Positions 17,765 to 25,545 of a DNA stretch of 64,000 nucleotides are shown here, piece after piece (the stretch's first letter is position 1; each line of letters opens with the position of its first letter). The stretch is from an uncultured Pelagibacteraceae bacterium (lineage in GTDB: Bacteria; Pseudomonadota; Alphaproteobacteria; Pelagibacterales; Pelagibacteraceae): assembly GCA_902634885.1 (NCBI GenBank), contig CACPLR010000003.1:1-64000 (forward strand), given 5' to 3'. The notes under the pieces were generated by a model. That model had not been told where the DNA came from and did no database searches. It was given only the letters and a program-made list of their open reading frames with translations. The position numbers were made by a program, and so were the translations under genes.

Positions 17765-18169
17765 TTATAACTTCTTTTTTAATTTTTTCCACACCCCTGA
17801 AGCTATAGCGATTTTATTTTTTTTTGATCTCAATTCACAATTCATAAAAACTAATGTGTTAGTTACTTTTTGAATTTTTACTTCACCTATAATTTCATCA
17901 CCAATCTTTGAGGAACCAATATATTTAATATCTAATGAAATAGTTACACAGACTTTATTTCCTGCAGATCGATATACTGCAGTACCTGCACCAGCATCAA
18001 TTATTGATGCAATATACCCACCGTGAGTAATTCCAACTTTATTAATATGATTTTTTTTTACTTTTGTTTTAAATCGATATCTATCTTTTGTTAAATCTCT
18101 GAAAAATAAACCACCGTTATGTTTCATAAAACCAGGTTTTTTGCTTATTTGGTGATAAATTTTACTCAT
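17765..18169 (-). CDS. PaaI-type hotdog-fold thioesterase
   Basis: KVGITHGGYIASIIDAGAGTAVYRSAG and VTISLDIKYIGSSKIGDEI. Confidence 0.87.
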   Translation of the reverse strand: MSKIYHQISKKPGFMKHNGGLFFRDLTKDRYRFKTKVKKNHINKVGITHGGYIASIIDAGAGTAVYRSAGNKVCVTISLDIKYIGSSKIGDEIIGEVKIQKVTNTLVFMNCELRSKKNKIAIASGVWKKLKKKL

Positions 18170-18246
18170 TAAATAAATACACTAATCATAACAAGAATAA
18201 CTATCACAATTAAAAAAAAATAAATAACTGATTTTTGAAGCGACAA
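18169..18246 (-). CDS. Candidate 25-aa hydrophobic membrane micro-ORF
   Basis: Not in ORF track. TTG start; MSLQKSVIYFFLIVIVILVMISVFI*; AAGGA upstream; stop shares one base with the thioesterase ATG (TAATG). Confidence 0.55.
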   Translation of the reverse strand: MSLQKSVIYFFLIVIVILVMISVFI

Positions 18247-18265
18247 ATTTATTCCTTTCCAATTT

Positions 18266-18342
18266 TGGTGCGCCTGCTAGGAGTTGAACCCAGAACCTCC
18301 TGGTCCGTAGCCAAGCGCTCTATCCAATTGAGCTACAGGCGC
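18266..18342 (-). tRNA. tRNA-Arg (anticodon ACG), CCA encoded
   Basis: Reverse complement GCGCCTGTAGCTCAATTGGATAGAGCGCTTGGCTACGGACCAGGAGGTTCTGGGTTCAACTCCTAGCAGGCGCACCA; loop CTACGGA. Confidence 0.96.
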
Positions 18343-18400
18343 GACTTATTAAAGTATTTTAGTTTAATTTTTAATCTATATTTGTGATTATTCAAATATT

Positions 18401-18424: not shown

Positions 18425-18462
18425 ATCTATTTTAGAATAAAAGGTATATATAATATTTCAAA

Positions 18463-23887: not shown

Positions 23888-24778
23888 ATGAATAAATCAG
23901 CATCATTAATTTGTGCTCTAATAACGACTTTTATTTGGGGGACAGCTTTTATTGCACAAGATACTGGGATGGACAATATTGGCCCACTGACTTTCAACTC
24001 TGCTAGATTTTTTGTTGGTTTCATTTTTATGCTTCCAGTTGCTTTAATAATTGAGAGAAAAAAAATAATCCCTGAAATTAATTCAAACAAAAAACTATTT
24101 TTTAAATATTATATGTTTATGGGTGTATCTCTATTTTTGGGTACTTCGCTTCAACAAGCTGCTTTACAATATACCAATATTGCTAATGCAGCATTTTTTA
24201 CAATTTTTTACGTACCAATTGTCCCGATATTATTATTTTTTTTTTATAAAATCAAAGTTCATTGGAGTATCTGGCCCTCAATAGCAATGTGTATAATCGG
24301 AGTTTATTTACTTAGTAATTTTTCAAACTCACAAATAATGTTAGGTGATGCATTGGTAATTCTGTGCTCTTTATTTTGGGCACTGCATATAATTTTTGCA
24401 GGAAAATTTATGAAAAAATTTGATTTACCTATATTTTATGCTTCTTTACAGTCAATTTTTGTTTTTTCACTTTCTATAATAGCTGCTTATGTATTAGAGG
24501 AAATAGATATTCAAAAAATACTTTTAGAATACAGTTCTATACTTTATGCAGGAATTCTATCAGGTGGTGTTGCTTTTACTCTTCAGATGTATGCACAAAA
24601 AAATATTGATGAAGCTCCTGCAGCTATAATATATTCATTAGAAGGTGTTTTTGCTGCACTTGCAGGCTGGATAATTCTTAATCAAATTTTAAATTTGGAT
24701 AATATTATTGGATGCTTCCTAATATTATTTGCTGTGATTTTATCACAGATTGCTCCTTCAGCTGCTAAGAAAGTTTAA
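23888..24778 (+). CDS. EamA/DMT-family transporter
   Basis: About ten hydrophobic segments; FIWGTAFIAQDTGM start and SLEGVFAALAGWIILNQ near the C-terminus. Confidence 0.9.
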   Translation: MNKSASLICALITTFIWGTAFIAQDTGMDNIGPLTFNSARFFVGFIFMLPVALIIERKKIIPEINSNKKLFFKYYMFMGVSLFLGTSLQQAALQYTNIANAAFFTIFYVPIVPILLFFFYKIKVHWSIWPSIAMCIIGVYLLSNFSNSQIMLGDALVILCSLFWALHIIFAGKFMKKFDLPIFYASLQSIFVFSLSIIAAYVLEEIDIQKILLEYSSILYAGILSGGVAFTLQMYAQKNIDEAPAAIIYSLEGVFAALAGWIILNQILNLDNIIGCFLILFAVILSQIAPSAAKKV

Positions 24779-25545
24779 AAGTAAATAAGTGCAAATAAAA
24801 TAATACTTAGAAAAATTCTATAATAAACGAATAAGTTTAAACTAAATTTACTTACAAAAATAAGAAAATATTTAATTGTTATATAAGAAATTATAAATGA
24901 TAAAATAATAGATAATAAAAAAACGAAATCAAATTTGATTTCATCGCTTATTAAATCTCTTATACCAAGAACACTTGCTCCTGCAAGGGCAGGGATAGAT
25001 AAGTAAAAGGCGATTTTAGTGGAATCAATTCTATCAAAATTTAAAAAACGTGAGGCTGTTATAATCACACCTGACCTACTTACACCAGGTATAACGGCTA
25101 AGGCTTGAAATAAACCAATTATAATTACATTTTTTAAATTAAGATCTAAATCAATTTTTTTTTTAATAGTCTGTTTATCAGCAAAAAAAAGAAGTAATCC
25201 AAAAAGCAAAGTTGTCCATGCAATAACCTCTATAGATCTTAATTTTTCTATAATACTAGTTGAGTGTAAAATAAAACCAACTAAAATTAGAGGAATTGAT
25301 CCTAAAAATATTAAAACAGCTAAAGATTTATTTTCAAACATGTTTATTAAATCTTTTCTAAAATAAAAAATTATTGCTAATAAAGAACCAAGATGAAGAC
25401 AAATATCTAATTGTAGTGAAGCTATCTGAAAATCATTAAATTTTGTAACTACAATTAAGTGTGCAGAGGAACTGACTGGAATAAATTCAAAGAAACCTTG
25501 AATAATTGCTAATATGGAAGTTTCTATGTATTTTGAAATCATCAA
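24775..25545 (-). CDS. uppP: Undecaprenyl-diphosphatase UppP/BacA
   Basis: IIQGFFEFIPVSSSAHLIV and ALAVIPGVSRSGVIITASRFL. Confidence 0.95.
   Translation of the reverse strand: MMISKYIETSILAIIQGFFEFIPVSSSAHLIVVTKFNDFQIASLQLDICLHLGSLLAIIFYFRKDLINMFENKSLAVLIFLGSIPLILVGFILHSTSIIEKLRSIEVIAWTTLLFGLLLFFADKQTIKKKIDLDLNLKNVIIIGLFQALAVIPGVSRSGVIITASRFLNFDRIDSTKIAFYLSIPALAGASVLGIRDLISDEIKFDFVFLLSIILSFIISYITIKYFLIFVSKFSLNLFVYYRIFLSIILFALIYF

Follow-up and report, generated by a model that had tools for sequence, protein, structure and literature searches.

A conserved micro-ORF beside tRNA-Arg(ACG) in SAR11 bacteria and its predicted single-helix membrane protein

AcrZ, CydX, KdpF and MgtS are small accessory proteins, each a single helix, that belong to membrane complexes of bacteria, whereas the type I toxins IbsC, TisB and DinQ are hydrophobic membrane peptides repressed by antisense RNA. 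The predicted micro-protein described here, encoded in a 64,000-nt stretch of DNA from an uncultured Pelagibacteraceae bacterium (the window), appears to resemble the first set in that it is tiny, consists of one mostly hydrophobic helix and has its own short gene, as those proteins have near or within operons; it resembles the toxins in length and hydrophobic composition. It differs from the accessory proteins in matching no solved chain or family model and in being family-restricted, and from the toxins in being single-copy and near-universal within its clade, with a strong N-terminal motif and no antisense RNA found. Specifically, Pfam, NCBIfam and PDB yielded no relative of the micro-protein, and none of the known small subunits of membrane complexes there matches it in sequence. 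Likewise, PHROGs gave nothing convincing and a search of IMG/VR with a degenerate pattern retrieved no viral copy, and on these results a viral or mobile origin was rejected. The similarity of one relative's peptide to phospholamban (PF04272; E 0.07–0.09) was also set aside, as it lies far below the curated cut-off and at chance level; phospholamban is an animal protein with no meaningful homology to the micro-protein. The papers searched contain no earlier description of it.

The micro-ORF occupies positions 18169..18246 on the minus strand, where it reads TTG TCG CTT ... ATT TAA and encodes 25 amino acids (MSLQKSVIYFFLIVIVILVMISVFI) with one predicted transmembrane helix. Directly upstream is a gene for tRNA-Arg(ACG) (18266..18342, minus strand), and downstream is a gene for a 134-aa thioesterase of the 4HBT or hotdog fold (PF03061; 17765..18169, minus strand), the last A of the micro-ORF's TAA, at 18169, serving also as the A of the thioesterase ATG. 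A Shine-Dalgarno-like AAGGA (18253..18257, minus strand) stands 6 nt 5′ of the TTG, and motifs of the AAGGA/AGAGG type precede the start in many relatives. The coordinates, frame, start codon, AAGGA and shared A are all as given in the preliminary description of this DNA, whose statement that TAATG junctions recur at many operon junctions of the window is a fair one: the 1-nt stop/start overlap is found in 6 of 27 closely spaced same-strand gene pairs.

The window's nearest relatives are SAR11 (Pelagibacteraceae) genomes, from which 110 thioesterase loci were recovered. The micro-ORF lies immediately upstream of the thioesterase gene in 106 of these; in the other four it lies about 1.1 kb upstream, with a gene of about 1 kb inserted between, and in the three of the four that were examined it is 14 nt from tRNA-Arg. 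The frameshifts, stops and absences from close relatives that the preliminary description had named as possible counter-evidence did not appear, the core being exactly 24 codons in the 106 loci, with no indel and no internal stop. This core begins with the motif S-L-[QE]-K-[SA]-V-[IV]-x-F-F, in which S1, L2, V6, F9 and F10 are invariant among the 106 loci. Total length is 27 aa (76 loci), 32 aa (20), 25 aa (9) or 33 aa (1): the relatives start at ATG and reach 27–33 aa, whereas the window's clade starts at TTG and has 25. In that clade (L006, L036–L043) ATA or ATT replaces the relatives' ATG two codons upstream of the TTG, and the TTG start, peculiar to the clade, is kept in nine of nine members.

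The substitutions within this frame are of the coding type. A check of codon-level conservation, suggested earlier, gives pN/pS values of 0.14–0.17 in close pairs, which indicates purifying selection; entropy at the three codon positions is 0.92/0.20/1.18, and stops interrupt the two alternative frames of that strand in 85/85 and 27/85 sequences. The expectation that the TAATG junction would be preserved across relatives held in part: the 1-nt overlap with the thioesterase gene is frequent (about 61 of 106 loci), but the remaining loci have gaps of 0–13 nt. Because the frame is kept in 106 of 110 loci and evolves as coding sequence does, the micro-ORF is coding rather than a product of chance, and a chance ORF is ruled out by the conservation and the codon statistics together. 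The alternative that the element is a structured RNA and not a protein was also rejected, as Rfam returned nothing beyond the tRNA itself and an antisense match to that tRNA below threshold, and the codon pattern fits a protein. Protein coding is thus established by comparative evidence, and that the micro-ORF is a protein-coding gene under selection is, on this evidence, close to certain.

The distribution of the gene was followed with a profile (A1) searched over 197 Pelagibacterales genomes. Within the window's genus (g1) it matches almost all of the near-complete genomes, and it also matches g8 and g9, with essentially one strong copy per genome. Four genomes (G188, G214, G175 and G186) have no strong match; because their thioesterase gene is missing too and tRNA-Arg(ACG) was not found, they are probably incomplete at this locus owing to assembly gaps. 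A broader profile (A2) extends the family to g7 (E 2e-7 to 6e-4) and g6 (6e-5 and 6e-4); the matches in g5 are weak (E 0.006–0.009) and otherwise rest on position after a DoxX-family gene. Profile-profile comparison (hhalign) of the g1 peptides with those of g5–g7 gives P 5e-7. The real g5–g7 peptides outscore all full shuffles against A2, but shuffling the hydrophobic part alone still gives some high scores, so that much of the signal resides in the N-terminal motif. Neither profile found anything convincing in the sister family f2, and about 287 alphaproteobacterial genomes outside the genus gave zero matches at E<=0.001. Vertical inheritance throughout the Pelagibacteraceae appears to be the best explanation for these observations.

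It is informative to compare the genes that surround the micro-ORF in these genera. The gene downstream in g1 is the thioesterase, while in g8 and g9 the micro-ORF follows tRNA-Arg(ACG) and converges on uppP, which was identified by eye from the sequence, the two stops overlapping or abutting. A uppP-like gene is also present in the window, about 6.5 kb from the micro-ORF (24775–25545, minus strand); that it is distant there but convergent in g8 and g9 is a local rearrangement. In g5–g7, all eight copies (L194–L199, L201, L202) come directly after a DoxX-family gene (PF07681), the junction being TAATG with a 1-nt overlap in g5 and g7 and a 3-nt gap in g6; the micro-ORF is a separate protein there, without a DoxX domain. 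The gene order in g6 is tRNA-Arg(ACG), DoxX, micro-ORF, which links these copies to the g1 locus by location in addition to sequence. A search of 15 genomes of g1, g8 and g9 detected no DoxX, which means that the micro-gene outlived its DoxX neighbour, and the simplest history would be one in which the ancestor of g1, g8 and g9 lost a DoxX gene that had stood between tRNA-Arg and the micro-gene. In the rest of the class, DoxX genes lack a micro-ORF beside them. Since the micro-gene persists without an adjoining thioesterase in g5–g9, the link to the thioesterase is local, and no constant neighbour gene emerges as a candidate partner, as the neighbours vary by genus (thioesterase, uppP, DoxX). 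Two further features of these flanks can be recorded: the region beside tRNA-Arg(ACG) in L008, L059, L148, L162 and L163 resembles an insertion spot, and in L180–L183 the micro-ORF and the thioesterase gene are separated by an inserted ORF of about 336 aa, the start of which (MKKKILSLFFIFVCSVANAEIKC...) is signal-peptide-like.

The proximity of the tRNA raises the question of how the micro-ORF is transcribed. In most g1 relatives its start lies 4–19 nt from the CCA end of the tRNA and no terminator-like site was found between the two, for which reasons tRNA-Arg(ACG) and the micro-ORF are probably co-transcribed. Upstream of the tRNA the sole sigma-70-like match (18434..18461, minus strand; TTGAAA-16-TATTCT) is weak and not above chance. 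The micro-ORF would then be read from the tRNA transcript, with 3′ processing of the tRNA leaving a short leader on its message. However, the adjacency is broken in several lineages, where other genes intervene or the tRNA and the micro-ORF have ceased to adjoin (L008, L059, L148, L162 and L163), and this counts against such a model.

All members contain a hydrophobic stretch of about 18–19 residues, as judged from sequence. In the commonest form lysines occur only towards the N-terminus, and the positive-inside rule accordingly predicts that this end is cytoplasmic; the segment K-[IV]-S-L-Q-K would thus stay in the cytoplasm, with the single helix crossing the inner membrane to leave the C-terminus at its periplasmic face (N-in/C-out). 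Conservation along the helix has a period of about 95 degrees, although the permutation p of 0.033 is modest and the aligned sequences share ancestry. The stripe so marked (V6, F9/F10, V13, L17 and T21 in core numbering) fits packing against a partner, in the manner of AcrZ, which is described as binding AcrB (PMC7267776). We favor, with somewhat better than even confidence, a genuine gene for a 25–33-aa single-pass inner-membrane protein that acts as an accessory subunit. The stripe would pack against a larger membrane protein shared by the whole family, which the micro-protein might assist or stabilize; for this role by itself we would put the chances at even or a shade above. The gene orders indicate that the partner is in general neither the thioesterase nor DoxX, because the micro-protein is retained where either is missing nearby, and even where DoxX is missing from the genome. 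A bolder proposal, which we offer only tentatively and think rather more apt to fail than to hold, is of an undescribed family of 25–33 residues, at least as old as the Pelagibacteraceae, that forms a constant subunit of a SAR11 membrane machine and has a processed tRNA transcript as its message. If that last element were true, tRNA maturation would create the 5′ end of the mRNA for the micro-protein.

Other roles are conceivable for so small a gene. The close spacing to the thioesterase gene in the 106 loci is what one would expect of a leader whose translation brings ribosomes to the overlapping ATG, the peptide itself being irrelevant; yet selection acts on the amino-acid sequence, a gene of about 1 kb separates the two in four loci, and the persistence of the micro-gene where no thioesterase adjoins it rules out this function as a general role, so that we regard such coupling as very unlikely to account for the gene. 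The tight junctions with DoxX in g5–g7 might instead mark a former dedicated partner, the micro-gene having been kept after the loss of DoxX through another partner or an activity of its own. The clade of g1, g8 and g9, in which DoxX went undetected and the micro-gene remains, is compatible with this history, but losing the partner without losing the micro-gene suggests that DoxX was not the main one, and DoxX genes across the class lack such a neighbour; we consider this possibility unlikely.

It is also worth considering that the micro-protein works without any partner and, as a homo-oligomer, adjusts the permeability or curvature of the membrane. A whole protein consisting of one helix with a conserved stripe is compatible with self-packing, but there is no polar pattern that could line a pore, the one exception being position 21 with its small T/S/A residue, and the idea seems decidedly unlikely. 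More improbable still is a toxin of the IbsC, TisB or DinQ kind. Such toxins are of similar size and have a single helix rich in I, L, V and F; nonetheless, the very conserved N-terminal motif and a near-universal, vertically inherited gene with one strong copy per genome are unlike sporadic, multi-copy toxins, and Rfam, which covers described RNAs, gave no antisense RNA match.

Few free-living cells have genomes as streamlined as those of SAR11, and a tiny gene that almost all near-complete genomes in the main genus retain, even as the genes around it change, is likely to matter to the cell. Across the Pelagibacteraceae, among the commonest groups of ocean bacteria, a near-identical micro-protein with one predicted helix is encoded at an equivalent place. 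The usual minimum for gene finders is about 90 nt (Prodigal), and the micro-ORF of the window, at 78 nt, falls below this length and sits inside a tRNA-containing spacer. A survey of intergenic regions in Ca. Pelagibacter ubique removed tRNA-containing spacers from its table (PMC2704228), while a global catalogue of small proteins, with ORF predictions reaching down to 30 nt (PMC11364881), may list the micro-protein without a function. The present case suggests that further genes of this kind may be hidden beside tRNAs in SAR11 genomes. ORFs antisense to tRNA-Arg are of a kind often mis-annotated as conserved proteins, and the window contains one of these as well, a 50-aa ORF (MKRQIYSFPILVRLLGVEPRTSW...) at 18235–18387 on the plus strand.
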